A DNA stretch of 64,000 nt from NCBI GenBank assembly GCA_019054805.1, contig JAHQIY010000008.1, positions 3,271,501 to 3,335,500 on the forward strand. Direction: 5' to 3'. Each line of letters begins with the position of its first letter. The stretch's first letter is position 1. Source of the DNA: Brachionus manjavacas (lineage: Eukaryota; Rotifera; Eurotatoria; Ploima; Brachionidae). The translations under genes were made by a program, and so were the position numbers. Shown here piece after piece: positions 1-25,015 of the stretch. Under the pieces are notes generated by a model that saw nothing but the letters and a program-made list of their open reading frames with translations, did not search any database and was not told the DNA's origin.

Positions 1-423
1 AATTTTCTATTTCTGCATTAGAATTTGACAGTCAGCGAATAAGTAATAAAATTGTTTTAAAAAGTCGTCACATCATTTATTTAAATTATATTTAAATTAT
101 TATAATTTTTAAGGGTCTGATTTTCTGAAGCAACTGAAGTTTCATTTATTCTTTTACCTTTGAATAGCACCCAGTCTAAAAAATTTAAAAGACTTTTTCT
201 AAGGTTCTTTAAAGGTTTCCGGACGCTTTTTTTCAAAAATTTTTTAAAGAATGGTCTTAAGAATTTCAATAAAATAAAGATAATTATATAAAAAAAATTT
301 CTTTAAAAAGTTTGAATGTTTTTTTAATTAGTGAGCTTTTAATCAATTTAAACATATTTTTTGCACTGTGACATTATCAGAATAAATTTTAAATAAATTT
401 TAGTTACATTTAAAGATAAAATA

Positions 424-469
424 ACTTAAAATCGCAGTTATCTTTAAGAATCTAGCTGCGATTTTAAGT
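424..469. repeat. 14-bp perfect inverted repeat (hairpin)
   Basis: Left arm acttaaaatcgcag (424-437) and right arm ctgcgattttaagt (456-469) are exact reverse complements around an 18-base loop. It is repeated in units 2 and 3. No transposon or gene is recognised around it. Confidence 0.7.
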
Positions 470-1273
470 GGTTTTAAGTGATATATGTATTGAAAAATCT
501 TCCTGATTTTTCGATTCGCTTCTAGTTGAAAAGCTTATCCCAGGATTTTATAAATAGGAGAATAGTTTTATGGGAACTAAATTTTCTTTTTTCGTAAATT
601 TTTGCTCTGTAATGATAATTTTACTTGAATCAATTATTAAAAAATAATTTAATTTTATATTTATAATTTAGTAAAAGCAGAGTTGTTTAAAAATTCTAAA
701 TTAAAGCTCTAGTCCTAAAAAATTTAAAAGTCTTTTTGCTCGGAATTTAAGAAGAAGGTCCGGACTTGGACTTGACTAGACTTTTTAGCAACTCTGAGTA
801 GAAGCAATAGTAAATAACCATGAACATGAACAACAAATCATGTGGAGCGCGTCAGCATTAGATGACACCTTGTAGCTCTGTTAAGATACTTGTCGAGGTT
901 GTTCTTGATTCATATCACTGTGGGTAAGTGATGACATTGTTAGGTGAACCGTTACAAATGTTTACAATCTTGCACAGTAGGTCCAGTAGCCGGATGTTAC
1001 TCTGAATTTTGAGCTTATCAACTGATGAACATTGAAAAGTAAGAATTATATTTTTCATGTATCTCAGTCGCTTCGAAATGCTGAAAAATACATTTATCAT
1101 CCAGCTCACATCTTGACTTAACTAAAAACCAGTATTCTTGACACCAGCCTAAAGGTTTAAATAAGGATCCTGTTCATAGAACTTCAGAATGTTGAATTAT
1201 TAAAATAAAGTCTTTAAACAATAATATTTACTACAATAATAATATCTTAAAAAGTGGATATAAAAAGCAAAAT

Positions 1274-1898
1274 GAGATAGCCAAACTGTAGGGTGTATCT
1301 CCAATTATATGTTAAGAGACAGGTTCTGTGTCTGATCGAAGCCGTTCTGGTAGACCACGGAAGCATCTCATACAGCGGCCGGAAACCCCTTCTAAACAAA
1401 AAAGATAGACAAAAATGATATAATTGGTGAAAACAGAGTAGTGTTGGAAACGGTCAAGACAAACCGGTTTAATGGTTTTTTGCGGTCATTTGGCTGGTCA
1501 GCCAGGCGGTCTAAATTTTAGACCATTAAGCAAGTCATTATTTACATTCAGAATTATTTCATTAACTTTAGCATTTGCTTCATCCGTAACTAGTACATTA
1601 TTATAAGATTACAAGGATCATTAAGAGGATCAACAAAGTTAACTTTATGATTAATTGTCATATGCTTAGAGCTTTTATAAATTTTTAAACTTAAAGTAGG
1701 ACCTTTCCTCGGACACATACCGCTCACTCAGTTAGCGACTGATTCATTGAGATTTTGAGATGGTGTGCCCGTTCACCAGATCTCAATCGTGAACTTATGG
1801 TCATATATGGATGCATCATATATGAAATTGGTAAACACTACAGTAACTCCTTTGAGCAATTAAAAGAGGTTTTGCCCAAAGAGTGGTAAAAGATTCCA
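1274..1898 (+). pseudogene. Tc1/mariner-type transposase relic, unit 1
   Basis: Decayed remains of a Tc1-family transposase. From 1,274 one frame reads EIAKL*GVSPIIC*, then ETGSVSDRSRSGRPRK, the hinge of the Tc1 DNA-binding region with its GRPR AT-hook-like motif. From 1,761, in another frame, comes WCARSPDLN and then SFEQLKEVLPKEW*KIP, matching the end of the DDE domain (usually WPARSPDLNPIE and a final EEW-KIP). Stops, frame changes and loss of most of the middle mean it cannot be active. Terminal inverted repeats were not found. The same relic is in each array unit, so it predates the amplification. Confidence 0.8.
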
Positions 1899-2770
1899 AC
1901 TAAGTACGTACACAAATTGATTGAAGAAGCTGATTTTTTTATTTTCTCGCCTATTAAATACGTAAAAAAATTCTTTTATTAACAAAAAAAATTCTAAACT
2001 TTTGCAACATATGTATAATATGTAATTAGTAATACTATACCTTAAATTAAATAAATAATTAATACAAATATTTTTACAATAAAACAAGACAATTAAAATA
2101 AAGCACGTGATGTGACATTAGGGGTCCTACTTTTTTTGAAATTTTAGCAACCAATTTTTTTAAAACTAAAAATTCCATGGCAGAATTATCAGAATAACAA
2201 ATATTATTTCTGTCTTTGATTTGAACATTGATTATAAAAAAATAACAAGTTTTTCATGAATTTAATTAAAATTTTTTCATTTGATGACCTTTTAAAATAA
2301 ACTCTTAAAATATAGATCAAAAATTATTAAAAAAATAAACTAAAATCCATCTGGAACGTTTCTTCAAATTTACAATTGCAATTTTTTTACATACCAAATT
2401 TTGCATTAGAAATTATACAAAATAAATAAATAATAGAAAAAAAGAAATTCTTCATTTGACCAGAAAAATTCGAAATTAAAACAAATAAAAAATTTCCTTT
2501 GTCAGGTTTATCTTCCTTGAAAATAAAAAAAATTTAAATTTTTTTTCTTTGATTTGAACTGAATTAAAATGAGTTACATTTAGGTATTTTTTATTCATAA
2601 TATTTATAAAAAAATTTTTATTTATATGTCTATATTTCCCCTTCAAGACTTTTGCGTTTTGGTTCATATGAATTTGAGCAACCACTTGCATAAGAGTTTT
2701 TTTTAAAATAATTAATAAAACTATCATGATTACATGCATGTGCTGATAAAAATTAAATTAAAAAAATAAT

Positions 2771-2778
2771 TATATAAA
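2771..2778 (+). promoter_or_regulatory. TATA-like box upstream of SELENBP1 copy 1
   Basis: The sequence tatataaa lies about 70 bp before the ATG at 2,843, and a second TATA-like word (ggtataaatt) lies near 2,794. Identical elements precede copies 2 and 3. In such AT-rich DNA this could be chance. Confidence 0.3.
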
Positions 2779-2842
2779 GTGCAATTTTTCATGGTATAAA
2801 TTGGAGAAATCTATAAGCTTGAATTGAAATAAAATTAAAAAA

Positions 2843-4210
2843 ATGAGCGATTTAAAGTGTTGTGCATGTGGTCCAGGATACAAAAGTCCAGAAGAGGCCA
2901 TAAAAGGAGAAAAAGAAAAAATCGTGTACACGGTATTGGTTTACTGTGGTGAAGACAAAAACCAGCCAGACTGTTTGGCAACAGTTGATGTTGACCCTAC
3001 ATCTCCAACATATTCAAAAGTCATACACACATTAAATATGAAATATGCGGGAGATGAGTTGCATCATTTTGGTTGGAATGCTTGCTCATCATGTTTTGAT
3101 GATTCAACAAAATCAAGAAGGTTCATTGTCCTGCCAGGTTTTAAATCGTCCCGTATTTACATCATTGATACTTTGAATGAACGAAAACCTTCGATTCATA
3201 AAATTTTAGAACCCGAGGAAATAAAGGAAAAGGCAAATTTTTCGTCACCACATACTGTTCACTGTTTGGCCAATGGTAAAATAATGATTTCTTTTTTAGG
3301 AGATAAAAATGGTAATGCGCCAGGTGGATATTTATTGCTGAATAGTGATTTTGAAATTGATGGAAAATGGGGAGAAAGTGAGTACAAATCAATAGGGTTC
3401 AATTACGATTTTTGGTATCAGCCATATCATAACATCATGGTAAGCAGTGAGTGGAGTGCACCTAGTACATTCGGCCCAGGATTTGACTTAGAAGATGTTC
3501 AAAAAGGAAAATATGGACAAAAGTTATATTTTTGGGATTGGAAAAATGAAAAATTGGTCAAAACTTTTGATTTAGGCCAAGATGGTTTGATACCATTGGA
3601 ATTAAGATTCATGCATAGTCCAAAAAGTAGTCACGGATATGTTGGTGCGGCTTTGAGCAGCTCCGTGTGGCATTGGTGGAAAGAGGGTGATGAATGGAAA
3701 ATTGAAAAAGTTGTTCAAGTAGACCCGGTTAATCTGGATTCGTGGCCCTTTCCAGTTCCTGCTCTTATTACTGATTTGCTTTTGTCTATGGACGATAGAT
3801 TTATGTATTTTTCAAATTGGTTACATGGTGAAATTCATCAATACAATATACAAGATCCATACAAGCCAAAATTGGTCGGAAAAATCAAAATTGGAGGAAT
3901 AGTTGGTGATAGTTGTTCCATAAAGAATAAAAAACTATCTGGTGGACCTCAAATGATTCAACTAAGTTTAGACGGAAAAAGACTTTATGTGACTAATTCT
4001 CTTTTTAGTTCATGGGATGACCAATTTTACCCTGATATAAAAAAGGATGGATCTTATATGATTCAAATAAATTGTGATACAAATAATGGTGGTCTAAGTT
4101 TGCAAGATAATTTTTTAATTGATTTTGGCAAATTGGATGATGGTCCCTTCAGAGCTCATGAAACACGATATCCGGGGGGTGACTGTACTTCAGATATCTG
4201 GATAGCGTAG
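2843..4210 (+). CDS. SELENBP1: Methanethiol oxidase / selenium-binding protein 1, array copy 1 (intact)
   Basis: A single-exon 455-aa protein that aligns with the whole of animal SELENBP1 (about 472 aa). Family members oxidise methanethiol to formaldehyde, H2S and H2O2 in the cytosol, probably with copper. Visible family blocks are KCCACGPGY (5-13), LATVDVDP, DELHHFGWNACSSC (71-84), DGLIPLELRF, SNWLHGE, GGPQMIQLSLDGKRLY and the C-terminal RYPGGDCTSDIWIA. The residue aligned with human Cys57, reported as the selenium-binding cysteine, is Ser58 here (PTYSKV). The start is supported by alignment with the human N-terminus. TATA-like sequences lie upstream, and AATAAA follows 28 bases after the stop. 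It is the only undamaged copy of the three in the array. Confidence 0.95.
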   Translation: MSDLKCCACGPGYKSPEEAIKGEKEKIVYTVLVYCGEDKNQPDCLATVDVDPTSPTYSKVIHTLNMKYAGDELHHFGWNACSSCFDDSTKSRRFIVLPGFKSSRIYIIDTLNERKPSIHKILEPEEIKEKANFSSPHTVHCLANGKIMISFLGDKNGNAPGGYLLLNSDFEIDGKWGESEYKSIGFNYDFWYQPYHNIMVSSEWSAPSTFGPGFDLEDVQKGKYGQKLYFWDWKNEKLVKTFDLGQDGLIPLELRFMHSPKSSHGYVGAALSSSVWHWWKEGDEWKIEKVVQVDPVNLDSWPFPVPALITDLLLSMDDRFMYFSNWLHGEIHQYNIQDPYKPKLVGKIKIGGIVGDSCSIKNKKLSGGPQMIQLSLDGKRLYVTNSLFSSWDDQFYPDIKKDGSYMIQINCDTNNGGLSLQDNFLIDFGKLDDGPFRAHETRYPGGDCTSDIWIA

Positions 4211-4237
4211 ACATTCCTAATTGATTATTTTATTATT

Positions 4238-4243
4238 AATAAA
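4238..4243 (+). terminator. Poly(A) signal AATAAA of SELENBP1 copy 1
   Basis: AATAAA lies 28 bases after the stop codon. The same word follows array copies 2 and 3 at the same distance, and another AATAAA follows the diverged paralogue near 25,044. Confidence 0.55.
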
Positions 4244-5650
4244 GACTTAAATTCACAATATTAGTGTTCATAAAACCTTTATCGGCTCTTGGCTGCCATG
4301 TGAAAAGTTATTTTGTATCAATTTGAAGACCAGGTATTTTTTTAGACTGGTGAGCTTTTCACTGGTCATATTAAGTGACCAGTTTATCAAAAATATGCCT
4401 ATGATGAGTTTGAATCCTTATAATGTTTTCGAGTAGCTAAATTTAAATTCTACCATTTTTTGAAATTTTCTTTTGAAGCATTTTTGCTCATATAATATTA
4501 AACATTCAAGTGATACTTTAAATTTATTCAAATTTTTTTCTTATTTTAAAATTTTAAAATTGTCTTATTAGAAATTCAAGTGAGCAAGCCAACAAGCGCT
4601 ACTACAATTAAATGTTCCTGTTGGTCACATACCAAAAACCTTTATTTGTTAAGTAATTATGATATTTTGATAAATATCAATTTACACATCATTTTTAAAA
4701 AAACTATTTTTATTTTTTGAACATCTTAAATATTATACTATAATTAAATGATTTAAATATCTAAAGTCTTAATAGGAATAAATGCATTTAAAGAAATAGA
4801 ATTCCTAAAAGTAAAGGGGAGTCCTAATAGTAGCTAGTGATAGATGTTTTTATAACTGTAAATATTCTGATCATAATGAAGTACGTTTATGAATGAAATG
4901 TTTTCAAAAGTTATTTGAAAAAAAATTTAAAATTATTTAATTATGTTTTTCAAATCAAATTACTGACTTCTTCTTTTTTAAAGAACATTTCACATTTACT
5001 GGATTAAATGAATAAAGTAGTTAATAAATTAAACTCCTATACTCCCCTTAGTTTAATACAATAATCTTAATTTTACCAGTATTTCACTCAATTATCCCAA
5101 ATACTGACCCAAAAATCCATGAAATTTTAAAATTTATCAAAATAAATAAATTTTCTGAGAAAGAAAACCAAATTTTTGAGAAATTTTCATTTTATTTTAT
5201 TGTGGCAAAATTATTATGGGTCCACATTCTCAACATACTTTAAAGTATTTTTAGCTTAATTTAAGATCGTTTTAGCATACAATATTTTATCAAAAAATGC
5301 TCACAAAACAGACACTCTAAAAAACTTATTTAAATGCTGACAAACATACTCGTATATTTTAGAATTAAAAATTTTAAAATTGAAATAAATTTTGACAAAT
5401 TGAATAGTATTAGTAGTAGAATATATTTAATTTGAATTAATCCTAGCTTCAAAAAATACAATAAATTATAAAATCACCCAAACATTTATTTAAAAAAAGA
5501 AATTCTAACCCAGGAAAAATTCTAGAAAAAAATATAAAAAAATTAATTAAAATTAATTGTAAAATATCAATTTATTTTTTTAAATTTTATTCATATGTTT
5601 TAAGTACATATGCAAAATCATTTTCAGTATAATTTGAAAAAATTTTAAAA
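4244..5650. other. AT-rich spacer inside the array unit
   Basis: No coding segment recognised. A short inverted repeat, actggtca...tgaccagt, lies near 4,366-4,388. The matching stretches in units 2 and 3 (from about 12,440 and 20,645) are the same. Confidence 0.6.
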
Positions 5651-6008
5651 GCGTTCTTTCTAACTGGTATAGTGCCAAAGGCTTGGAAAGAGACAAATAT
5701 AACGCCATTATTACAGAAGTCGGGACTCACTACCCTGATCAAGAGAAGAGAGAGAGGAGATCTTGTCCAATATTTCTAAGATAGTTAATGGTTTAACTAA
5801 AGTGAACTGGCACAACCCAAACAGACTTTGCGATTCGTTGAGTTTTTTTGGTCCAGCGAGGAGTATGCGTGGGTACCAACACAGAATGTCCAAACAACTG
5901 ACTAGAATCAACCAACGAGAAATTGTCATACTTATCAGTTGTAGACAACCGGAACAAAGAACTTTTTTAAGAAAATGGTTAACGAAATCAAAACGTTGCG
6001 ATAGTTAA
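5651..6008 (+). pseudogene. Non-LTR retrotransposon reverse transcriptase relic, unit 1
   Basis: The + strand from about 5,651 reads FLTGIVPKAWKETNITPLLQ, the typical start of a Jockey/CR1-type reverse transcriptase (usually G-VP--WK-A-I-PL-KK). It then passes through a degraded stretch into SCPISKIVNG, which recalls the RPISLTS...SKI motif. The open frame continues to 6,008 (81 aa from an ATG at 5,763), but the rest is not recognisable. The relic resembles the one at 42.7-44.7 kb (GKVPKAYKTSNITMI). Only a fragment of the domain survives. Confidence 0.65.
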
Positions 6009-7268
6009 AGGAGTATTAAGCACTGTCGGAAAGCTACTATAGCGTTTCCTATATGGGTTTTCGTTTGGTGGGATAAACCACCATAGCTCAATATTATTAT
6101 TTTTTTATTATACATGAATAAATTAAAGTAAAAATTTGCTAAAAGATTTCAAAATCTTAACACAACCTTAATCTTAATTTTTCTCGGTTTTTAAACGAGA
6201 AAAATTTTTAGCATTTTATTACTTTTTCTTGTTTTAGGTTTTTATTTTCCTTTTGAATTTATCTTCTATACAATTTTCATCCACTGGTTTTGTTTTAAAA
6301 TTTAAAATTGCTTGAAAAAATTTTCTTATAAACAATAAATTTTAGATTTTTGAATTCGTCATTAAAAATCAAATAGCAATCAATTTATTTTATTTTTGTT
6401 TATGTCAAATTAATTTCGGTCTTTAGCCATGAAAATTAGCTAAAAAAACTTAATTTTGCTCATAAAAAAACAAAATGAACGCTTTTAAGTGTTTATGAAA
6501 TTCCTGGATATTCTTCTTTGCGCAGTTACCGAGCTATTTAGAACATTTTTTAACAAGAATTCAATTATTTTGGCATATACCACTTTTTTAATTATTAGGT
6601 TACAAATAAAAAACAACTCTAAAAATACAAAAATTTAATTACAATCATTCATGTAATTGAAAAGATGGTAAATTTTTTCAGCCAAATGGACCTTCCATAC
6701 CCATTGTCACCCTATGCCCAATTAAAATGATTGTTTAAATTTTATTCAAATTAACCTAGAGAAAATTAAATTTTTTTATAGGCCTAATTTGAAAACAAAA
6801 TAATTATCTTTAAGAATCTACTTACTTTTCTCATTATCATTTGTTATGGATGAATAGGTTATAACTGAACTCGGAAGAATTTTTCCTCAAATATTTTTAG
6901 TTAATCTAAAACAAAGAAAATTTCAATTTGGATTTTGATTTATCTATCTATCTTAAAAGCTTAGATGAAACAAAAGAAGTGAAATATTATTATAAAAAAA
7001 TTTAAACCATAAATTAAGAAAAAATTCCTTTTAAAATTAAATGATATCTTAATAACAAATTTAGTTGTCATTATTAAAACTAAATAAATTTAATTCTATT
7101 AAAAATTGAAAACTATTTTAAATTAGATATTTAAAAAAATATCCTTGTAAACACTTATGAGTATCAATATGATTTTTTAAATCTCTTTGGTTTTTTTACG
7201 GCTCAGAATCGGAATATATTATTGCGATTTCGAAATGATCAATAATTTTTAATTGAGTTTTTAATTGA

Positions 7269-7332
7269 GTTTTTCGGAAGATTAATAAAATCTTCCGAAA
7301 AACAATTTAGACTGTCTCAAATCTGAGACAGT
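7269..7332. repeat. Two adjacent perfect hairpins
   Basis: Arms gtttttcggaagatt (7,269-7,283) and aatcttccgaaaaac (7,289-7,303) form a 15-bp inverted repeat with a 5-base loop. Eight bases later actgtctca (7,311-7,319) and tgagacagt (7,324-7,332) form a second one. The pair recurs in unit 2 near 15,467-15,531 and is missing from truncated unit 3. Confidence 0.75.
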
Positions 7333-7861
7333 TATTATTCACAAGAAGTAATTTTTGAACAATTAATAAAAAAATAAATTTTATTTTATTTTTTAGCATT
7401 GCAATCTATCTCTTATTTTAATTTTGACTTTAATTTTGTAATCAAAGTCAAGTAATATTTGATTGAAATTTGTCTTTTGGTTAAAATATGCTTTTTGGAT
7501 AAGAAAACTATTTTAAAGTTAAAAAAACAAGATTATTTTTCTCTAATAACATTGTGACTATTAAAAAAAATGTTTTTAATTGTTAAATATAAATGATTTA
7601 AATAACACTCAAATTAAAAACAATTCATTATTAAAATTAATCAAATAATAATAAGACTGGAATTGGTGCTCTGTAAAAAAGCTTTCTAGCCAATTTTTAT
7701 GCTGATTCAGTTGATTAGTTTTTCATTTACCTCACCAAAACAAAAATCAATTTTTGTCTTATAAATAGATTTTTGAAAATACCGAGTACATAAAGTTTAT
7801 TTAAAGTTAAATAGACCTTAATAATTATGTTTGTCTTAGGATAATTAAATGACTAAAGCTT

Positions 7862-8092
7862 GTGATTTTTATCGTACCGAAGAATCTTTCATTTGATGAC
7901 ATTTTTTTGGGTCTAATGGAAAGTGTGGACAATTATTCACCAAAAAATGTTATCATGTGTACCAAATCATACTATACAAGCTTCTGTGAGCATTACGATA
8001 TTGATAAGTCGATTAAAATATATTCGTTTTTCGCAATCACAATCGAATCTGTTAACTTTGAAAGTAAAGTAAAATTTATGATCAAATTTTAA
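7862..8092 (+). CDS. Small open frame, doubtful
   Basis: A 76-codon frame from an ATG, beginning MIFIVPKNLSFDDIF. I do not recognise it. Its codons are less AT-biased than the surroundings, which is the only reason to list it. In unit 2 a T-run length difference breaks the same frame (it restarts at 16,108). It may be an exon or element fragment, or chance. Confidence 0.15.
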   Translation: MIFIVPKNLSFDDIFLGLMESVDNYSPKNVIMCTKSYYTSFCEHYDIDKSIKIYSFFAITIESVNFESKVKFMIKF

Positions 8093-9469
8093 AATTTCAA
8101 AAATGCTAAAAATTTATTAAATGCTTAATTGATTGCACTGCCAATATCAGAATTATTTAAGCTTAATTTTTGCTACTTTGACATTTAAAATCTTGAATTT
8201 TCTATTTCTGCATTAGAATTTGACAGTCAGCGAATAAGTAATAAAATTGTTTTAAAAAGTCGTCACATCATTTATTTAAATTATATTTAAATTATTATAA
8301 TTTTTAAGGGTCTGATTTTCTGAAGCAACTGAAGTTTCATTTATTCTTTTACCTTTGAATAGCACCCAGTCTAAAAAATTTAAAAGACTTTTTCTAAGGT
8401 TCTTTAAAGGTTTCCGGACGCTTTTTTTCAAAAATTTTTTAAAGAATGGTCTTAAGAATTTCAATAAAATAAAGATAATTATATAAAAAATTTCTTTAAA
8501 AAGTTTGAATGTTTTTTTTTTAATTAGTGAGCTTTTAATCAATTTAAACATATTTTTTGCACTGTGACATTATCAGAATAAATTTTAAATAAATTTTAGT
8601 TACATTTAAAGATAAAATAACTTAAAATCGCAGTTATCTTTAAGAATCTAGCTGCGATTTTAAGTGGTTTTAAGTGATATATGTATTGAAAAATCTTCCT
8701 GATTTTTCGATTCGCTTCTAGTTGAAAAGCTTATCCCAGGATTTTATAAATAGGAGAATAGTTTTATGGGAACTAAATTTTCTTTTTTCGTAAATTTTTG
8801 CTCTGTAATGATAATTTTACTTGAATCAATTATTAAAAAATAATTTAATTTTATATTTATAATTTAGTAAAAGCAGAGTTGTTTAAAAATTCTAAATTAA
8901 AGCTCTAGTCCTAAAAAAATTTAAAAGTCTTTTGCTCGGAATTTAAGAAGAAGGTCCGGACTTGGACTTGACTAGACTTTTTAGCAACTCTGAGTAGAAG
9001 CAATAGTAAATAACCATGAACATGAACAACAAATCATGTGGAGCGCGTCAGCATTAGATGACACCTTGTAGCTCTGTTAAGATACTTGTCGAGGTTGTTC
9101 TTGATTCATATCACTGTGGGTAAGTGATGACATTGTTAGGTGAACCGTTACAAATGTTTACAATCTTGCACAGTAGGTCCAGTAGCCGGATGTTACTCTG
9201 AATTTTGAGCTTATCAACTGATGAACATTGAAAAGTAAGAATTATATTTTTCATGTATCTCAGTCGCTTCGAAATGCTGAAAAATACATTTATCATCCAG
9301 CTCACATCTTGACTTAACTAAAAACCAGTATTCTTGACACCAGCCTAAAGGTTTAAATAAGGATCCTGTTCATAGAACTTCAGAATGTTGAATTATTAAA
9401 ATAAAGTCTTTAAACAATAATATTTACTACAATAATAATATCTTAAAAAGTGGATATAAAAAGCAAAAT

Positions 9470-10094
9470 GAGATAGCCAAACTGTAGGGTGTATCTCCAA
9501 TTATATGTTAAGAGACAGGTTCTGTGTCTGATCGAAGCCGTTCTGGTAGACCACGGAAGCATCTCATACAGCGGCCGGAAACCCCTTCTAAACAAAAAAG
9601 ATAGACAAAAATGATATAATTGGTGAAAACAGAGTAGTGTTGGAAACGGTCAAGACAAACCGGTTTAATGGTTTTTTGCGGTCATTTGGCTGGTCAGCCA
9701 GGCGGTCTAAATTTTAGACCATTAAGCAAGTCATTATTTACATTCAGAATTATTTCATTAACTTTAGCATTTGCTTCATCCGTAACTAGTACATTATTAT
9801 AAGATTACAAGGATCATTAAGAGGATCAACAAAGTTAACTTTATGATTAATTGTCATATGCTTAGAGCTTTTATAAATTTTTAAACTTAAAGTAGGACCT
9901 TTCCTCGGACACATACCGCTCACTCAGTTAGCGACTGATTCATTGAGATTTTGAGATGGTGTGCCCGTTCACCAGATCTCAATCGTGAACTTATGGTCAT
10001 ATATGGATGCATCATATATGAAATTGGTAAACACTACAGTAACTCCTTTGAGCAATTAAAAGAGGTTTTGCCCAAAGAGTGGTAAAAGATTCCA
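9470..10094 (+). pseudogene. Tc1/mariner-type transposase relic, unit 2
   Basis: Copy of the relic at 1,274-1,898, with the same stops and the same frame change between the GRPR segment and the WCARSPDLN segment. Sharing identical lesions shows it was duplicated already broken and did not insert independently. Confidence 0.8.
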
Positions 10095-11040
10095 ACTAAG
10101 TACGTACACAAATTGATTGAAGAAGCTGATTTTTTTATTTTCTCGCCTATTAAATACGTAAAAAAATTCTTTTTATTAACAAAAAAAATTCTAAACTTTT
10201 GCAACATATGTATAATATGTAATTAGTAATACTATACCTTAAATTAAATAAATAATTAATACAAATATTTTTACAATAAAACAAGACAATTAAAATAAAG
10301 CACGTGATGTGACATTAGGGGTCCTACTTTTTTGAAATTTTAGCAACCAATTTTTTTAAAACTAAAAATTCCATGGCAGAATTATCAGAATAACAAATAT
10401 TATTTCTGTCTTTGATTTGAACATTGATTATAAAAAAATAACAAGTTTTTCATGAATTTAATTAAAATTTTTTCATTTGATGACCTTTTAAAATAAACTC
10501 TTAAAATATAGATCAAAAATTATTAAAAAAATAAACTAAAATCCATCTGGAACGTTTCTTCAAATTTACAATTGCAATTTTTTTACATACCAAATTTTGC
10601 ATTAGAAATTATACAAAATAAATAAATAATAGAAAAAAAGAAATTCTTCATTTGACCAGAAAAATTCGAAATTAAAACAAATAAAAAATTTCCTTTGTCA
10701 GGTTTATCTTCCTTGAAAATAAAAAAAATTTAAATTTTTTTTCTTTGATTTGAACTGAATTAAAATGAGTTACATTTAGGTATTTTTTATTCATAATATT
10801 TATAAAAAAATTTTTATTTATATGTCTATATTTCCCCTTCAAGACTTTTGCGTTTTGGTTCATATGAATTTGAGCAACCACTTGCATAAGAGTTTTTTTT
10901 TTAAAATAATTAATAAAACTATCATGATTACATGCATGTGCTGATAAAAATTAAATTAAAAAAATAATTATATAAAGTGCAATTTTTCATGGTATAAATT
11001 GGAGAAATCTATAAGCTTGAATTGAAATAAAATTAAAAAA

Positions 11041-12407
11041 ATGAGCGATTTAAAGTGTTGTGCATGTGGTCCAGGATACAAAAGTCCAGAAGAGGCCATA
11101 AAAGGAGAAAAAGAAAAATCGTGTACACGGTATTGGTTTACTGTGGTGAAGACAAAAACCAGCCAGACTGTTTGGCAACAGTTGATGTTGACCCTACATC
11201 TCCAACATATTCAAAAGTCATACACACATTAAATATGAAATATGCGGGAGATGAGTTGCATCATTTTGGTTGGAATGCTTGCTCATCATGTTTTGATGAT
11301 TCAACAAAATCAAGAAGGTTCATTGTCCTGCCAGGTTTTAAATCGTCCCGTATTTACATCATTGATACTTTGAATGAACGAAAACCTTCGATTCATAAAA
11401 TTTTAGAACCCGAGGAAATAAAGGAAAAGGCAAATTTTTCGTCACCACATACTGTTCACTGTTTGGCCAATGGTAAAATAATGATTTCTTTTTTAGGAGA
11501 TAAAAATGGTAATGCGCCAGGTGGATATTTATTGCTGAATAGTGATTTTGAAATTGATGGAAAATGGGGAGAAAGTGAGTACAAATCAATAGGGTTCAAT
11601 TACGATTTTTGGTATCAGCCATATCATAACATCATGGTAAGCAGTGAGTGGAGTGCACCTAGTACATTCGGCCCAGGATTTGACTTAGAAGATGTTCAAA
11701 AAGGAAAATATGGACAAAAGTTATATTTTTGGGATTGGAAAAATGAAAAATTGGTCAAAACTTTTGATTTAGGCCAAGATGGTTTGATACCATTGGAATT
11801 AAGATTCATGCATAGTCCAAAAAGTAGTCACGGATATGTTGGTGCGGCTTTGAGCAGCTCCGTGTGGCATTGGTGGAAAGAGGGTGATGAATGGAAAATT
11901 GAAAAAGTTGTTCAAGTAGACCCGGTTAATCTGGATTCGTGGCCCTTTCCAGTTCCTGCTCTTATTACTGATTTGCTTTTGTCTATGGACGATAGATTTA
12001 TGTATTTTTCAAATTGGTTACATGGTGAAATTCATCAATACAATATACAAGATCCATACAAGCCAAAATTGGTCGGAAAAATCAAAATTGGAGGAATAGT
12101 TGGTGATAGTTGTTCCATAAAGAATAAAAAACTATCTGGTGGACCTCAAATGATTCAACTAAGTTTAGACGGAAAAAGACTTTATGTGACTAATTCTCTT
12201 TTTAGTTCATGGGATGACCAATTTTACCCTGATATAAAAAAGGATGGATCTTATATGATTCAAATAAATTGTGATACAAATAATGGTGGTCTAAGTTTGC
12301 AAGATAATTTTTTAATTGATTTTGGCAAATTGGATGATGGTCCCTTCAGAGCTCATGAAACACGATATCCGGGGGGTGACTGTACTTCAGATATCTGGAT
12401 AGCGTAG
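11041..12407 (+). pseudogene. SELENBP1: SELENBP1 array copy 2, frameshifted after codon 26
   Basis: The same gene as copy 1, but the A run before tcgtgtacac has five A instead of six (near 11,114-11,118), so the reading frame from the ATG at 11,041 shifts after Lys26 and soon ends. All 420-odd downstream codons stay open in the +1 frame to the stop at 12,405-12,407. An out-of-frame ATG at 11,055 could in principle give a 450-aa protein with an altered first 21 residues lacking the KCCAC segment. A homopolymer sequencing error is the simplest explanation; a real fresh frameshift is the alternative. Confidence 0.85.
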
Positions 12408-13847
12408 ACATTCCTAATTGATTATTTTATTATTAATAAAGACTTAAATTCACAATATTAGTGTTCATAAAACCTTTATCGGCTCTTGGCTGCCATGTGA
12501 AAAGTTATTTTGTATCAATTTGAAGACCAGGTATTTTTTTAGACTGGTGAGCTTTTCACTGGTCATATTAAGTGACCAGTTTATCAAAAATATGCCTATG
12601 ATGAGTTTGAATCCTTATAATGTTTTCGAGTAGCTAAATTTAAATTCTACCATTTTTTGAAATTTTCTTTTGAAGCATTTTTGCTCATATAATATTAAAC
12701 ATTCAAGTGATACTTTAAATTTATTCAAATTTTTTTTCTTATTTTAAAATTTTAAAATTGTCTTATTAGAAATTCAAGTGAGCAAGCCAACAAGCGCTAC
12801 TACAATTAAATGTTCCTGTTGGTCACATACCAAAAACCTTTATTTGTTAAGTAATTATGATATTTTGATAAATATCAATTTACACATCATTTTTAAAAAA
12901 ACTATTTTTATTTTTTGAACATCTTAAATATTATACTATAATTAAATGATTTAAATATCTAAAGTCTTAATAGGAATAAATGCATTTAAAGAAATAGAAT
13001 TCCTAAAAGTAAAGGGGAGTCCTAATAGTAGCTAGTGATAGATGTTTTTATAACTGTAAATATTCTGATCATAATGAAGTACGTTTATGAATGAAATGTT
13101 TTCAAAAGTTATTTGAAAAAAAATTTAAAATTATTTAATTATGTTTTTCAAATCAAATTACTGACTTCTTCTTTTTTAAAGAACATTTCACATTTACTGG
13201 ATTAAATGAATAAAGTAGTTAATAAATTAAACTCCTATACTCCCCTTAGTTTAATACAATAATCTTAATTTTACCAGTATTTCACTCAATTATCCCAAAT
13301 ACTGACCCAAAAATCCATGAAATTTTAAAATTTATCAAAATAAATAAATTTTCTGAGAAAGAAAACCAAATTTTTGAGAAATTTTCATTTTATTTTATTG
13401 TGGCAAAATTATTATGGGTCCACATTCTCAACATACTTTAAAGTATTTTTAGCTTAATTTAAGATCGTTTTAGCATACAATATTTTATCAAAAAATGCTC
13501 ACAAAACAGACACTCTAAAAAACTTATTTAAATGCTGACAAACATACTCGTATATTTTAGAATTAAAAATTTTAAAATTGAAATAAATTTTGACAAATTG
13601 AATAGTATTAGTAGTAGAATATATTTAATTTGAATTAATCCTAGCTTCAAAAAATACAATAAATTATAAAATCACCCAAACATTTATTTAAAAAAAGAAA
13701 TTCTAACCCAGGAAAAATTCTAGAAAAAAATATAAAAAAATTAATTAAAATTAATTGTAAAATATCAATTTATTTTTTAAATTTTATTCATATGTTTTAA
13801 GTACATATGCAAAATCATTTTCAGTATAATTTGAAAAAATTTTAAAA

Positions 13848-14205
13848 GCGTTCTTTCTAACTGGTATAGTGCCAAAGGCTTGGAAAGAGACAAATATAAC
13901 GCCATTATTACAGAAGTCGGGACTCACTACCCTGATCAAGAGAAGAGAGAGAGGAGATCTTGTCCAATATTTCTAAGATAGTTAATGGTTTAACTAAAGT
14001 GAACTGGCACAACCCAAACAGACTTTGCGATTCGTTGAGTTTTTTTGGTCCAGCGAGGAGTATGCGTGGGTACCAACACAGAATGTCCAAACAACTGACT
14101 AGAATCAACCAACGAGAAATTGTCATACTTATCAGTTGTAGACAACCGGAACAAAGAACTTTTTTAAGAAAATGGTTAACGAAATCAAAACGTTGCGATA
14201 GTTAA
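13848..14205 (+). pseudogene. Non-LTR reverse transcriptase relic, unit 2
   Basis: Copy of the relic at 5,651-6,008, carried along by the tandem duplication. Confidence 0.65.
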
Positions 14206-17200
14206 AGGAGTATTAAGCACTGTCGGAAAGCTACTATAGCGTTTCCTATATGGGTTTTCGTTTGGTGGGATAAACCACCATAGCTCAATATTATTATTTT
14301 TTTATTATACATGAATAAATTAAAGTAAAAATTTGCTAAAAAGATTTCAAAATCTTAACACAACCTTAATCTTAATTTTTCTCGGTTTTTAAACGAGAAA
14401 AATTTTTAGCATTTTATTACTTTTTCTTGTTTTAGGTTTTTATTTTCCTTTTGAATTTATCTTCTATACAATTTTCATCCACTGGTTTTGTTTTAAAATT
14501 TAAAATTGCTTGAAAAAATTTTCTTATAAACAATAAATTTTAGATTTTTGAATTCGTCATTAAAAATCAAATAGCAATCAATTTATTTTATTTTTGTTTA
14601 TGTCAAATTAATTTCGGTCTTTAGCCATGAAAATTAGCTAAAAAACTTAATTTTGCTCATAAAAAAACAAAATGAACGCTTTTAAGTGTTTATGAAATTC
14701 CTGGATATTCTTCTTTGCGCAGTTACCGAGCTATTTAGAACATTTTTTAACAAGAATTCAATTATTTTGGCATATACCACTTTTTTAATTATTAGGTTAC
14801 AAATAAAAAACAACTCTAAAAATACAAAAATTTAATTACAATCATTCATGTAATTGAAAAGATGGTAAATTTTTTCAGCCAAATGGACCTTCCATACCCA
14901 TTGTCACCCTATGCCCAATTAAAATGATTGTTTAAATTTTATTCAAATTAACCTAGAGAAAATTAAATTTTTTTTTATAGGCCTAATTTGAAAACAAAAT
15001 AATTATCTTTAAGAATCTACTTACTTTTCTCATTATCATTTGTTATGGATGAATAGGTTATAACTGAACTCGGAAGAATTTTTCCTCAAATATTTTTAGT
15101 TAATCTAAAACAAAGAAAATTTCAATTTGGATTTTGATTTATCTATCTATCTTAAAAGCTTAGATGAAACAAAAGAAGTGAAATATTATTATAAAAAAAT
15201 TTAAACCATAAATTAAGAAAAAATTCCTTTTAAAATTAAATGATATCTTAATAACAAATTTAGTTGTCATTATTAAAACTAAATAAATTTAATTCTATTA
15301 AAAATTGAAAACTATTTTAAATTAGATATTTAAAAAAATATCCTTGTAAACACTTATGAGTATCAATATGATTTTTTAAATCTCTTTGGTTTTTTTACGG
15401 CTCAGAATCGGAATATATTATTGCGATTTCGAAATGATCAATAATTTTTAATTGAGTTTTTAATTGAGTTTTTCGGAAGATTAATAAAATCTTCCGAAAA
15501 ACAATTTAGACTGTCTCAAATCTGAGACAGTTATTATTCACAAGAAGTAATTTTTGAACAATTAATAAAAAAATAAATTTTATTTTATTTTTTAGCATTG
15601 CAATCTATCTCTTATTTTAATTTTGACTTTAATTTTGTAATCAAAGTCAAGTAATATTTGATTGAAATTTGTCTTTTGGTTAAAATATGCTTTTTGGATA
15701 AGAAAACTATTTTAAAGTTAAAAAAACAAGATTATTTTTCTCTAATAACATTGTGACTATTAAAAAAAATGTTTTTAATTGTTAAATATAAATGATTTAA
15801 ATAACACTCAAATTAAAAACAATTCATTATTAAAATTAATCAAATAATAATAAGACTGGAATTGGTGCTCTGTAAAAAAGCTTTCTAGCCAATTTTTATG
15901 CTGATTCAGTTGATTAGTTTTTCATTTACCTCACCAAAACAAAAATCAATTTTTGTCTTATAAATAGATTTTTGAAAATACCGAGTACATAAAGTTTATT
16001 TAAAGTTAAATAGACCTTAATAATTATGTTTGTCTTAGGATAATTAAATGACTAAAGCTTGTGATTTTTATCGTACCGAAGAATCTTTCATTTGATGACA
16101 TTTTTTTTTGGGTCTAATGGAAAGTGTGGACAATTATTCACCAAAAAATGTTATCATGTGTACCAAATCATACTATACAAGCTTCTGTGAGCATTACGAT
16201 ATTGATAAGTCGATTAAAATATATTCGTTTTTCGCAATCACAATCGAATCTGTTAACTTTGAAAGTAAAGTAAAATTTATGATCAAATTTTAAAATTTCA
16301 AAAATGCTAAAAATTTATTAAATGCTTAATTGATTGCACTGCCAATATCAGAATTATTTAAGCTTAATTTTTGCTACTTTGACATTTAAAATCTTGAATT
16401 TTCTATTTCTGCATTAGAATTTGACAGTCAGCGAATAAGTAATAAAATTGTTTTAAAAAGTCGTCACATCATTTATTTAAATTATATTTAAATTATTATA
16501 ATTTTTAAGGGTCTGATTTTCTGAAGCAACTGAAGTTTCATTTATTCTTTTACCTTTGAATAGCACCCAGTCTAAAAAATTTAAAAGACTTTTTCTAAGG
16601 TTCTTTAAAGGTTTCCGGACGCTTTTTTTTCAAAAATTTTTTAAAGAATGGTCTTAAGAATTTCAATAAAATAAAGATAATTATATAAAAAAAATTTCTT
16701 TAAAAAGTTTGAATGTTTTTTTTTTAATTAGTGAGCTTTTAATCAATTTAAACATATTTTTTGCACTGTGACATTATCAGAATAAATTTTAAATAAATTT
16801 TAGTTACATTTAAAGATAAAATAACTTAAAATCGCAGTTATCTTTAAGAATCTAGCTGCGATTTTAAGTGGTTTTAAGTGATATATGTATTGAAAAATCT
16901 TCCTGATTTTTCGATTCGCTTCTAGTTGAAAAGCTTATCCCAGGATTTTATAAATAGGAGAATAGTTTTATGGGAACTAAATTTTCTTTTTTCGTAAATT
17001 TTTGCTCTGTAATGATAATTTTACTTGAATCAATTATTAAAAAATAATTTAATTTTATATTTATAATTTAGTAAAAGCAGAGTTGTTTAAAAATTCTAAA
17101 TTAAAGCTCTAGTCCTAAAAAAAATTTAAAAGTCTTTTGCTCGGAATTTAAGAAGAAGGTCCGGACTTGGACTTGACTAGACTTTTTAGCAACTCTGAGT

Positions 17201-17674
17201 AGAAGCAATAGTAAATAACCATGAACATGAACAACAAATCATGTGGAGCGCGTCAGCATTAGATGACACCTTGTAGCTCTGTTAAGATACTTGTCGAGGT
17301 TGTTCTTGATTCATATCACTGTGGGTAAGTGATGACATTGTTAGGTGAACCGTTACAAATGTTTACAATCTTGCACAGTAGGTCCAGTAGCCGGATGTTA
17401 CTCTGAATTTTGAGCTTATCAACTGATGAACATTGAAAAGTAAGAATTATATTTTTCATGTATCTCAGTCGCTTCGAAATGCTGAAAAATACATTTATCA
17501 TCCAGCTCACATCTTGACTTAACTAAAAACCAGTATTCTTGACACCAGCCTAAAGGTTTAAATAAGGATCCTGTTCATAGAACTTCAGAATGTTGAATTA
17601 TTAAAATAAAGTCTTTAAACAATAATATTTACTACAATAATAATATCTTAAAAAGTGGATATAAAAAGCAAAAT

Positions 17675-18300
17675 GAGATAGCCAAACTGTAGGGTGTATC
17701 TCCAATTATATGTTAAGAGACAGGTTCTGTGTCTGATCGAAGCCGTTCTGGTAGACCACGGAAGCATCTCATACAGCGGCCGGAAACCCCTTCTAAACAA
17801 AAAAGATAGACAAAAATGATATAATTGGTGAAAACAGAGTAGTGTTGGAAACGGTCAAGACAAACCGGTTTAATGGTTTTTTGCGGTCATTTGGCTGGTC
17901 AGCCAGGCGGTCTAAATTTTAGACCATTAAGCAAGTCATTATTTACATTCAGAATTATTTCATTAACTTTAGCATTTGCTTCATCCGTAACTAGTACATT
18001 ATTATAAGATTACAAGGATCATTAAGAGGATCAACAAAGTTAACTTTATGATTAATTGTCATATGCTTAGAGCTTTTATAAATTTTTAAACTTAAAGTAG
18101 GACCTTTCCTCGGACACATACCGCTCACTCAGTTAGCGACTGATTCATTGAGATTTTGAGATGGTGTGCCCGTTCACCAGATCTCAATCGTGAACTTATG
18201 GTCATATATGGATGCATCATATATGAAATTGGTAAACACTACAGTAACTCCTTTGAGCAATTAAAAGAGGTTTTGCCCAAAGAGTGGTAAAAGATTCCAA
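17675..18300 (+). pseudogene. Tc1/mariner-type transposase relic, unit 3
   Basis: Third copy of the same broken transposase, identical in its recognisable segments to those of units 1 and 2. Confidence 0.8.
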
Positions 18301-19244
18301 CTAAGTACGTACACAAATTGATTGAAGAAGCTGATTTTTTTATTTTCTCGCCTATTAAATACGTAAAAAAATTCTTTTATTAACAAAAAAATTCTAAACT
18401 TTTGCAACATATGTATAATATGTAATTAGTAATACTATACCTTAAATTAAATAAATAATTAATACAAATATTTTTACAATAAAACAAGACAATTAAAATA
18501 AAGCACGTGATGTGACATTAGGGGTCCTACTTTTTTTGAAATTTTAGCAACCAATTTTTTTAAAACTAAAAATTCCATGGCAGAATTATCAGAATAACAA
18601 ATATTATTTCTGTCTTTGATTTGAACATTGATTATAAAAAAATAACAAGTTTTTCATGAATTTAATTAAAATTTTTTCATTTGATGACCTTTTAAAATAA
18701 ACTCTTAAAATATAGATCAAAAATTATTAAAAAAATAAACTAAAATCCATCTGGAACGTTTCTTCAAATTTACAATTGCAATTTTTTTACATACCAAATT
18801 TTGCATTAGAAATTATACAAAATAAATAAATAATAGAAAAAAAGAAATTCTTCATTTGACCAGAAAAATTCGAAATTAAAACAAATAAAAAATTTCCTTT
18901 GTCAGGTTTATCTTCCTTGAAAATAAAAAAAATTTAAATTTTTTTTCTTTGATTTGAACTGAATTAAAATGAGTTACATTTAGGTATTTTTTATTCATAA
19001 TATTTATAAAAAAATTTTTATTTATATGTCTATATTTCCCCTTCAAGACTTTTGCGTTTTGGTTCATATGAATTTGAGCAACCACTTGCATAAGAGTTTT
19101 TTTTTTAAAATAATTAATAAAACTATCATGATTACATGCATGTGCTGATAAAAATTAAATTAAAAAAATAATTATATAAAGTGCAATTTTTCATGGTATA
19201 AATTGGAGAAATCTATAAGCTTGAATTGAAATAAAATTAAAAAA

Positions 19245-20611
19245 ATGAGCGATTTAAAGTGTTGTGCATGTGGTCCAGGATACAAAAGTCCAGAAGAGGC
19301 CATAAAAGGAGAAAAAGAAAAATCGTGTACACGGTATTGGTTTACTGTGGTGAAGACAAAAACCAGCCAGACTGTTTGGCAACAGTTGATGTTGACCCTA
19401 CATCTCCAACATATTCAAAAGTCATACACACATTAAATATGAAATATGCGGGAGATGAGTTGCATCATTTTGGTTGGAATGCTTGCTCATCATGTTTTGA
19501 TGATTCAACAAAATCAAGAAGGTTCATTGTCCTGCCAGGTTTTAAATCGTCCCGTATTTACATCATTGATACTTTGAATGAACGAAAACCTTCGATTCAT
19601 AAAATTTTAGAACCCGAGGAAATAAAGGAAAAGGCAAATTTTTCGTCACCACATACTGTTCACTGTTTGGCCAATGGTAAAATAATGATTTCTTTTTTAG
19701 GAGATAAAAATGGTAATGCGCCAGGTGGATATTTATTGCTGAATAGTGATTTTGAAATTGATGGAAAATGGGGAGAAAGTGAGTACAAATCAATAGGGTT
19801 CAATTACGATTTTTGGTATCAGCCATATCATAACATCATGGTAAGCAGTGAGTGGAGTGCACCTAGTACATTCGGCCCAGGATTTGACTTAGAAGATGTT
19901 CAAAAAGGAAAATATGGACAAAAGTTATATTTTTGGGATTGGAAAAATGAAAAATTGGTCAAAACTTTTGATTTAGGCCAAGATGGTTTGATACCATTGG
20001 AATTAAGATTCATGCATAGTCCAAAAAGTAGTCACGGATATGTTGGTGCGGCTTTGAGCAGCTCCGTGTGGCATTGGTGGAAAGAGGGTGATGAATGGAA
20101 AATTGAAAAAGTTGTTCAAGTAGACCCGGTTAATCTGGATTCGTGGCCCTTTCCAGTTCCTGCTCTTATTACTGATTTGCTTTTGTCTATGGACGATAGA
20201 TTTATGTATTTTTCAAATTGGTTACATGGTGAAATTCATCAATACAATATACAAGATCCATACAAGCCAAAATTGGTCGGAAAAATCAAAATTGGAGGAA
20301 TAGTTGGTGATAGTTGTTCCATAAAGAATAAAAAACTATCTGGTGGACCTCAAATGATTCAACTAAGTTTAGACGGAAAAAGACTTTATGTGACTAATTC
20401 TCTTTTTAGTTCATGGGATGACCAATTTTACCCTGATATAAAAAAGGATGGATCTTATATGATTCAAATAAATTGTGATACAAATAATGGTGGTCTAAGT
20501 TTGCAAGATAATTTTTTAATTGATTTTGGCAAATTGGATGATGGTCCCTTCAGAGCTCATGAAACACGATATCCGGGGGGTGACTGTACTTCAGATATCT
20601 GGATAGCGTAG
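19245..20611 (+). pseudogene. SELENBP1: SELENBP1 array copy 3, same frameshift
   Basis: Third array copy, with the same A5 run and the same shift after codon 26 as copy 2. The rest of the frame is open and matches copy 1 to the stop. Sharing the lesion with copy 2 means either that the shift arose before these two units separated or that the same homopolymer was miscalled twice. Confidence 0.85.
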
Positions 20612-22054
20612 ACATTCCTAATTGATTATTTTATTATTAATAAAGACTTAAATTCACAATATTAGTGTTCATAAAACCTTTATCGGCTCTTGGCTGCCAT
20701 GTGAAAAGTTATTTTGTATCAATTTGAAGACCAGGTATTTTTTTAGACTGGTGAGCTTTTCACTGGTCATATTAAGTGACCAGTTTATCAAAAATATGCC
20801 TATGATGAGTTTGAATCCTTATAATGTTTTCGAGTAGCTAAATTTAAATTCTACCATTTTTTGAAATTTTCTTTTGAAGCATTTTTGCTCATATAATATT
20901 AAACATTCAAGTGATACTTTAAATTTATTCAAATTTTTTTTTTCTTATTTTAAAATTTTAAAATTGTCTTATTAGAAATTCAAGTGAGCAAGCCAACAAG
21001 CGCTACTACAATTAAATGTTCCTGTTGGTCACATACCAAAAACCTTTATTTGTTAAGTAATTATGATATTTTGATAAATATCAATTTACACATCATTTTT
21101 AAAAAAACTATTTTTATTTTTTGAACATCTTAAATATTATACTATAATTAAATGATTTAAATATCTAAAGTCTTAATAGGAATAAATGCATTTAAAGAAA
21201 TAGAATTCCTAAAAGTAAAGGGGAGTCCTAATAGTAGCTAGTGATAGATGTTTTTATAACTGTAAATATTCTGATCATAATGAAGTACGTTTATGAATGA
21301 AATGTTTTCAAAAGTTATTTGAAAAAAAATTTAAAATTATTTAATTATGTTTTTCAAATCAAATTACTGACTTCTTCTTTTTTAAAGAACATTTCACATT
21401 TACTGGATTAAATGAATAAAGTAGTTAATAAATTAAACTCCTATACTCCCCTTAGTTTAATACAATAATCTTAATTTTACCAGTATTTCACTCAATTATC
21501 CCAAATACTGACCCAAAAATCCATGAAATTTTAAAATTTATCAAAATAAATAAATTTTCTGAGAAAGAAAACCAAATTTTTGAGAAATTTTCATTTTATT
21601 TTATTGTGGCAAAATTATTATGGGTCCACATTCTCAACATACTTTAAAGTATTTTTAGCTTAATTTAAGATCGTTTTAGCATACAATATTTTATCAAAAA
21701 ATGCTCACAAAACAGACACTCTAAAAAACTTATTTAAATGCTGACAAACATACTCGTATATTTTAGAATTAAAAATTTTAAAATTGAAATAAATTTTGAC
21801 AAATTGAATAGTATTAGTAGTAGAATATATTTAATTTGAATTAATCCTAGCTTCAAAAAATACAATAAATTATAAAATCACCCAAACATTTATTTAAAAA
21901 AAGAAATTCTAACCCAGGAAAAATTCTAGAAAAAAATATAAAAAAATTAATTAAAATTAATTGTAAAATATCAATTTATTTTTTTAAATTTTATTCATAT
22001 GTTTTAAGTACATATGCAAAATCATTTTCAGTATAATTTGAAAAAATTTTAAAA

Positions 22055-22412
22055 GCGTTCTTTCTAACTGGTATAGTGCCAAAGGCTTGGAAAGAGACAA
22101 ATATAACGCCATTATTACAGAAGTCGGGACTCACTACCCTGATCAAGAGAAGAGAGAGAGGAGATCTTGTCCAATATTTCTAAGATAGTTAATGGTTTAA
22201 CTAAAGTGAACTGGCACAACCCAAACAGACTTTGCGATTCGTTGAGTTTTTTTGGTCCAGCGAGGAGTATGCGTGGGTACCAACACAGAATGTCCAAACA
22301 ACTGACTAGAATCAACCAACGAGAAATTGTCATACTTATCAGTTGTAGACAACCGGAACAAAGAACTTTTTTAAGAAAATGGTTAACGAAATCAAAACGT
22401 TGCGATAGTTAA
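22055..22412 (+). pseudogene. Non-LTR reverse transcriptase relic, unit 3
   Basis: Third copy of the relic, about 200 bp before the array breaks off. Confidence 0.65.
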
Positions 22413-22580
22413 AGGAGTATTAAGCACTGTCGGAAAGCTACTATAGCGTTTCCTATATGGGTTTTCGTTTGGTGGGATAAACCACCATAGCTCAATATTA
22501 TTATTTTTTTATTATACATGAATAAATTAAAGTAAAAATTTGCTAAAAAGATTTCAAAATCTTAACACAACCTTAATCTT

Positions 22581-22611
22581 AATTTTTCTCGGTTTTTAAA
22601 CGAGAAAAATT
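22581..22611. repeat. Hairpin at the array's right breakpoint
   Basis: Arms aatttttctcg (22,581-22,591) and cgagaaaaatt (22,601-22,611) are perfect reverse complements. The array ends 11 bp further on. The same hairpin lies inside units 1 and 2, where the sequence continues. Confidence 0.7.
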
Positions 22612-22749
22612 TTTAGCATTTTTTTTGATGAAAATTCAATTCCTATCTTTAGACATTTTATGCTAAGTTTTTTTCAATAAATTTTTTATTTAATTATTGT
22701 ATTTTATAATTGCATAAATATTTTTGCTTTAAATCAAATCTCAATATTT

Positions 22750-23680: not shown

Positions 23681-25015
23681 ATGAGCGCAGGATACAAAAG
23701 TCCTAAAACTGCCATGAATGCCCCAAAGGAAAAAATTATGTACACTACGTTGATTTATTGCGGAGAAGACAAAAATCAACAAGACCGTTTGGCAACAATA
23801 GACGTGGACCCTTCGTCTCCGACTTATTCTCAAGTCATTCATACCCTAAAAATGAAATATCCTGGAGACGAACTGCACCACTCGGGCTGGAATGCTTGTT
23901 CATCATGCTCTGGCTCAACAACTAGACAATATTTGATTCTACCCGGTCTAATGTCATCTAGAATTTATATAATTGATACCATTAATGAAAAAAGTCCAAC
24001 TATTCATAAAATAATTGAGCCTGAAGAAATAAAAGAAAAATGGAACTTAAGCTGTCCGCATACTGTCCATTGTTTACCAGATACCAATATCATGATTTCT
24101 TTTTTGGGTGATAAAAATGGAAATCCACCAGGAGGTTTTTTGGTTCTTAATTCAAATTTTGAGCCTATTAAAAAATGGGGCGAAGGCTTTGTAAATGACA
24201 TGGGCTATAATTATGATTTTTGGTATCAGCCACATCACAATATATTGGTAAATAGTGAATGGTCTGGTCCGAATACATTTGTGCAAGGATTTTCGCCGGC
24301 TCATTTATTAATGGGAAAATATGGACAAAAAGTTCATTTTTGGGATTGGAAAAGCGAAAAGCTTATTAAGTCATTTGACCTTGGAAAAGAAGGTCTCATG
24401 CCGTATGAACTACGCTTTTTACATAATCCTATGAGCTCGCACGGTTTCGTAGTTTGTCCTTTAAGCAGCTCAATTTGGCACTTTTGGAAAAGTGAAAATG
24501 ATTGGAACATGGAAAAGGTAATTCAAATAGAACCAATACATTCCAAAGCATGCCCATCACCAATACCTTCATTCACAATAGATCTACTCATTTCCATGGA
24601 TGATCGATTTTTGTACACTTCAAATTGGATGCATGGCGAAGTACATCAGTATTGTATAAATGATCCTCACAACCCTGTATTGACTTCCAAAATCAGACTT
24701 GGAGGAATTGGTCAAGACGTGTATCTTTTGAATCATAAATTGGCGGGAGGACCCCAGATGCTACAATTAAGCTTAGACGGAAAACGACTCTTTGTCACTA
24801 ACTCATTGTTTAGTTCCTGGGATGACCAGTTTTATCCGGAATTAAAAAAAACGGGGTCGTACATGATCAAAATAGAATGTGATACTGAAAAAGGTGGGAT
24901 GCATTTGGATGAAAATTTCCACATTGATTTTGGAAATATTGAAAAAGGACCTTTTAGAGCCCACGAAATGAGATATCCTGGAGGTGATTGTACATCTGAT
25001 ATTTGGGTTTCATAA
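23681..25015 (+). CDS. SELENBP1: Methanethiol oxidase / selenium-binding protein 1, diverged paralogue
   Basis: An intact single-exon 444-aa member of the same family, in the same orientation as the array genes and clearly related to them throughout, but with many substitutions. It keeps YCGEDKNQ, IDVDPSSPTY, DELHHSGWNACSSC, KKWGEGF, GGPQMLQLSLDGKRLF and RYPGGDCTSDIWVS. It starts MSAGYKSP and so lacks the first ten or so residues, including the CxxC of the array copies (KCCAC) and of human SELENBP1 (KCGNC). Whether an upstream exon supplies this is not visible. The position aligned with human Cys57 is again Ser (PTYSQV). An AATAAA lies about 30 bases after the stop. This is an older duplication than the array. 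Confidence 0.93.
   Translation: MSAGYKSPKTAMNAPKEKIMYTTLIYCGEDKNQQDRLATIDVDPSSPTYSQVIHTLKMKYPGDELHHSGWNACSSCSGSTTRQYLILPGLMSSRIYIIDTINEKSPTIHKIIEPEEIKEKWNLSCPHTVHCLPDTNIMISFLGDKNGNPPGGFLVLNSNFEPIKKWGEGFVNDMGYNYDFWYQPHHNILVNSEWSGPNTFVQGFSPAHLLMGKYGQKVHFWDWKSEKLIKSFDLGKEGLMPYELRFLHNPMSSHGFVVCPLSSSIWHFWKSENDWNMEKVIQIEPIHSKACPSPIPSFTIDLLISMDDRFLYTSNWMHGEVHQYCINDPHNPVLTSKIRLGGIGQDVYLLNHKLAGGPQMLQLSLDGKRLFVTNSLFSSWDDQFYPELKKTGSYMIKIECDTEKGGMHLDENFHIDFGNIEKGPFRAHEMRYPGGDCTSDIWVS

Follow-up and report, generated by a model that had tools for sequence, protein, structure and literature searches.

Organization of the tandem array

The stretch of DNA analysed here, a 64,000-bp window at 3,271,501-3,335,500 of the 5,248,282-base contig C8 of the Brachionus manjavacas assembly, has a G+C content of about 27% and genes that read as animal, and it opens within a tandem array of gene-bearing units. 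In the assembly this array consists of exactly three whole units arranged head to tail, and it extends from window position -1,982 (C8:3,269,518) to position 22,622 (Table 1). A first-pass annotation of the window had proposed tandem copies about 8.2 kb apart without substitutions, and both BLAST and a comparison of the full units bear this out: the window's first 8,195 bases, used as query, recur at 8,196 and 16,397 with no mismatch. These two positions, which had been taken as unit points, are merely recurrences of the window's first base, and the junctions lie at 6,217/6,218 and 14,415/14,416. In the true phase the third unit is complete rather than truncated, and its end had been placed at 22,622 exactly to the base. 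The expectation that the array runs past the left edge of the window was correct, while the additional copies that had been considered in that direction do not exist in the assembly, where no further unit precedes unit A.

Table 1. Coordinates of the array, its genes and its repeats (window positions; positions upstream of the window are negative)
Feature	Position	Strand	Description
Unit A	-1,982 to 6,217 (within window 1..6217)	+	8,200 bp; start C8:3,269,518, locus L006
Unit B	6218..14415	+	complete, 8,198 bp
Unit C	14416..22622	+	complete, 8,207 bp
Junction A/B	6217..6218		unit end joined to unit start
Junction B/C	14415..14416		same join as A/B
Right array edge	22622..22623		no base common to the two outer edges, inward or outward
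Inverted repeats	6125..6225		at the right end of the unit and spanning the junction; 14-nt and 25-nt arms
14-nt arms	6176-6189/6193-6206		inverted repeat at the unit's right end
25-nt arms	6125-6149/6201-6225		inverted repeat crossing the junction
Dispersed repeat, one per unit	13907..14333 (unit B coordinates)	+	36 of 42 rows of the whole-unit DNA search, from the best 39 of 777 candidates
SELENBP1-like gene, unit A	2843..4210	+	455 codons, single open frame; A6 at 2,916; Pfam SBP56, E 6.3e-206
SELENBP1-like gene, unit B	11041..12407	+	frame broken after codon 26; A5 for A6 at 11,114
SELENBP1-like gene, unit C	19245..20611	+	frame broken after codon 26; A5 at 19,318
Older SELENBP1-like paralogue, outside the array	23681..25015	+	444 codons, single open frame

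When homopolymers are compressed, units A, B and C collapse into one identical string of 5,109 runs, and over their full length the three units show neither substitutions nor indels other than changes in run length. Such identity is not due to chance, because the next longest repeat pair in a self-comparison of 144 kb (the 80-kb left flank plus the window; pairs longer than 150 bp and above 85% identity) measures just 600 bp at 93.5% identity. The joins of the array to the flanking DNA are clean, the flanks are unique, and neither the window nor the 80-kb left flank contains any N. A 32-base pattern spanning the junction has two matches with up to two mismatches in the genome (114.17 Mb in 61 contigs), both on C8 and located at the two array junctions, and its reversed control has none in the genome. 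Neither the junction pattern nor a profile search of the genome for SBP56 revealed array copies elsewhere. A DNA search with the whole unit, which scored the best 39 of 777 candidates, did not list the array itself and is thus unable to show the absence of further copies.

Inverted repeats are present at the right end of each unit, and the DNA fold predicted for 6125-6235 has a z value of -4.93. The dispersed repeat found once per unit had been considered as the tail of a retroelement on the basis of its translation; this idea was rejected because tblastn, run against 10 kb of the window and five genomic loci, yielded no match with an E value under 2.8. Elsewhere in the window, an open frame at 37,121-38,026 on the reverse strand contains a 237-bp repeat in 2.8 copies at 98% identity, and part of the repeat recurs at 38,625-38,708. 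This frame has no Pfam match above the curated cut-off.

The SELENBP1-like genes

The protein encoded in unit A covers the whole SBP56 profile (1-453 of 453) and matches one distinct solved sequence, 2ece_A, with an E value of 3.9e-117. Human SELENBP1 is described as holding copper in a pocket formed by the motifs XHHX and HXXH together with D189 and E252 (PMC10362175). The unit A protein has LHHF at 73-76, HTVH at 137-140, D at 189 and E at 253, i.e. the same motifs at nearly the human positions when matched by motif and position rather than by alignment to the human protein. The product of the array gene is a putative methanethiol/thiol oxidase of the SELENBP1 type.

The profile search placed SBP56 at five sites in the genome: the three array genes, a neighbouring paralogue 1.06 kb downstream of the array, and a copy on contig C5. 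The array gene shares 293 of 444 aligned residues with the neighbour and 285 of 451 with the C5 copy, and the highest identity, 326 of 443, is that between the neighbour and the C5 copy. For dS between the paralogues the program returned -1, which we take as saturation. An N-terminal CXXC is present in the array gene as well as in the C5 copy and is missing from the neighbour (23,681-25,015, forward strand). In human SELENBP1, Cys5 and Cys8 are reported as the main selenium-binding site (PMC10362175).

Duplication is known from other branches of this family, with Selenbp1 and Selenbp2 of the mouse and the SBP genes of plants as further examples. Selenbp2 is mentioned in the literature as a highly homologous isoform. 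Our literature search found no papers that join rotifers and selenium-binding protein.

Run-length differences between the units

The claim that the units differ only in the length of A/T runs holds over their full length. Run length varies at 19 of the 5,109 homopolymer runs, every one of them A or T with a median length of 4 to 10, so that the proposed alignment of the units, counting substitutions against homopolymer indels, ends at 0 versus 19. The proportion of A/T runs that differ is 2/179 at median length 4, 2/88 at 5, 2/33 at 6, 5/27 at 7, 4/7 at 8, 2/2 at 9 and 2/2 at 10. Neither G/C runs nor A/T runs shorter than 4 change in length across the three units; the constancy of the G/C runs says little because just seven of them per unit reach a length of 4 or more. 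Eight of the 19 differences span two or three bases. The odd unit out is A at eight sites, B at seven and C at two, and all three units differ at the remaining two, so the differences yield no clear tree among the units. The A5 common to units B and C, together with the eight sites at which A stands apart, could nevertheless reflect a true shared history.

Actin genes elsewhere in the assembly served as one control. Nine near-full-length copies were found, eight of which are open and one of which (L059) is split across two frames; coding sequence in this assembly is thus mostly clean. The split copy (C3:8,186,307-8,187,424) and L052 (C3:8,178,717-8,179,835) lie in inverted order and agree at 99.5% of positions across at least 2.6 kb. 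About 2.6 kb of this pair contain two substitutions and eight indels, one of which is located beside a substitution, with the other seven being plain run-length changes. The sole coding indel, T4 versus T3, coincides with the frame break near the start of one copy. With 2.7 run-length changes per kb, as compared with 1.3-2.1 between array units, this pair likewise has more run-length differences than substitutions, which means that such differences alone do not mark the array copies as false. A second pair, L054 (C48:100,422) and L055 (C48:107,849), has the same direction and a spacing of 7.4 kb. Over 1,475 bp it shows no substitution, no homopolymer difference and a single 4-bp microsatellite change, and on each side the identity stops a short way beyond the gene. 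Run-length noise is therefore seen in one of two recent actin pairs. Another cluster of related genes was encountered at C4:7,059,274-7,102,911, where five tubulin genes, four with equal profile score, are found within 44 kb.

A young dispersed element (L008:8400-10000 and L029-L048), whose frames read as reverse-transcriptase-like, provided the other control. The search returned at least 41 matches, including the query's own place, among the best 40 of 534 candidates, most of them at 97-100% identity, and 20 loci were extracted. Changes were counted column by column in 19 loci of 2.5 kb each, with the query's own place (L029) left out. Private substitutions number 37 in the 19 copies and homopolymer changes 13. 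Excluded from the ratio were the 97 cells in which substitutions are shared and three indels of other kinds, namely 2 bases inserted in L036, 4 bases deleted in L045 and 6 bases deleted in L046. A/T runs of 4 or more account for 10 of the 13 homopolymer changes, and the rate of the array predicts 9.0. At the element's ratio the 19 changes of the array would imply 13-17 substitutions, and the chance of observing none, as is the case, is 2e-6 to 3e-8; the ratio would be inflated by any substitutions that predate insertion, as some may.

The picture obtained from the element copies is mixed. Seven copies without private substitutions have one homopolymer change between them and the other 12 copies have 12, which suggests that part of the run-length changes are real slippage growing with age. 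A T6/T5 site is short in 5 of the 19 copies, including one of the otherwise agreeing copies L047 and L048, which indicates that the same run can be short repeatedly, as in units B and C. Judged by these controls, the 19 differences within the array would mostly represent long-read consensus error in A/T runs, and the frame-breaking A5 of units B and C is probably among these errors. The run-length differences neither date the array copies nor prove them false.

Origin and age of the array

We consider the array to be the probable result of a tandem triplication of very recent date on which homopolymer error of the consensus is superimposed. According to this model, a segment of about 8.2 kb with one SELENBP1-like gene was duplicated in tandem without the need for homology at its ends. 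A homology-driven first duplication was rejected since the best local match between the outer edges of the array scores 11, no more than 46% of 250 random pairs attain. A transposon as carrier of the unit was rejected as well, given that there are no terminal repeats, no target-site duplication and no bases common to the edges. The join is blunt. Because the outer edges share no bases and their surroundings are as dissimilar to each other as randomly chosen sites, the first duplication probably arose through end joining or an error during replication. The hairpin at the right end of the unit may have aided this step, and the inverted repeats at the junction possibly constitute a fragile site. 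From the two-copy state the third copy could have emerged by unequal exchange or by another error of the same kind. Either these events or a later homogenisation of the copies would be recent enough to explain why the copies differ by no substitution, and consensus errors in A/T runs would account for most of the differences that are seen.

The copies look very young because they are free of substitutions. With zero substitutions in about 8,200 sites, the tree that joins the three copies has a total length of less than 3.7e-4 (95%), or about 1.2e-4 per branch if all three are equally old. At a mutation rate of 1e-9 to 1e-8 per site and generation, the array would be younger than roughly 12,000 to 120,000 generations. 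The same pattern of zero substitutions would result from recent homogenisation. The first-pass annotation had set a recent amplification or homogenised array against an assembly artefact whose homopolymer errors mark false copies. The former fits our data, and so does the error itself; the either-or does not, as the evidence fits both together, and the error by itself does not mark the copies as false, because the inverted actin pair shows the same.

An artefact, in which a single-copy segment was written repeatedly because erroneous reads remained uncollapsed, is unlikely in our view. Long-read error that was left uncorrected would produce differences confined to homopolymers, and false duplications of the 'homotype' class, which arise from read errors, have been described along with cases on the same scaffold (PMC9516828). 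In such duplications as in the array, copies differ by apparent sequencing error alone. The array would depart from a homotype false duplication in that one exact junction occurs twice and the copies abut. Overlapping contig ends could create a single arbitrary join, but the same novel end-to-start join at the same base is much less likely to come from two accidental overlaps. The identical junction base together with the clean, N-free joins to unique flanks thus argues against a simple overlap artefact. A loop in the assembly graph may have been traversed once more than it should, yet even this requires molecules bearing the junction, and hence two real copies. Taken by themselves, zero substitutions and 19 run-length differences fit a true young duplication as well as a homotype false duplication, for which read depth is the defining test. 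A literature search found no papers on identical tandem copies with nanopore homopolymer error. In our judgement at least two physical copies are likely to be real, and we lean towards there being exactly three.

We regard as rather improbable an older, real array whose uniformity was maintained through unequal exchange or gene conversion and in which run lengths record true slippage since the last exchange. Such an array would be compatible with the slippage apparent in some element copies, where run-length changes seem to grow with age. However, the 13-17 substitutions that would be expected beside 19 run-length changes, possibly too many if the element's ratio is inflated, are absent. Moreover, it seems unusual for slippage to change short runs, here those of 4 and 5 bases, or to alter length by two or three bases at once. 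The latter argument weighs little, as it draws on general background and as indels of 1-2 bp are reported to be commonest (PMC8727991). The same study reports that slippage in A/T runs of C. elegans rises with length to about 11 bp, as do the differences seen here.

Relation to known duplications and implications

Tandem segmental duplication of a gene-bearing segment is a known and ordinary kind of event. Head-to-tail copies carrying a gene, a novel end-to-start junction, unique flanks and high identity are features that the array shares with such duplications; nothing essential differs, and its three substitution-free copies represent the young extreme. Tandem growth in copy number also links the array to the copy-number-variable regions of Brachionus asplanchnoidis (PMC8447722). 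As characterised in that study, these regions are mainly satellite DNA, with the two most prominent monomers measuring 154 and 143 bp and arrays reaching up to a few megabases, unlike the three 8.2-kb units with a gene described here.

For this AT-rich assembly, the lengths of A/T runs are unfit for dating copies or calling pseudogenes unless accurate reads are at hand, a caution that follows from the one-base run difference which also breaks the frame in one of two near-identical actin copies. If the triplication is real, it would represent the amplification of a gene at a very early stage, on which change in the copy number of a thiol oxidase gene could be studied, and if the copies are also expressed, they would raise the dose of a SELENBP1-type enzyme. 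It is tempting to speculate, as a long shot, that amplification of this gene arose no longer than roughly 10,000 to 100,000 generations ago (at the mutation rates given above), perhaps under selection for dosage, as might act in a sulphur-rich habitat or under culture conditions, and that copy number is still changing between clones.
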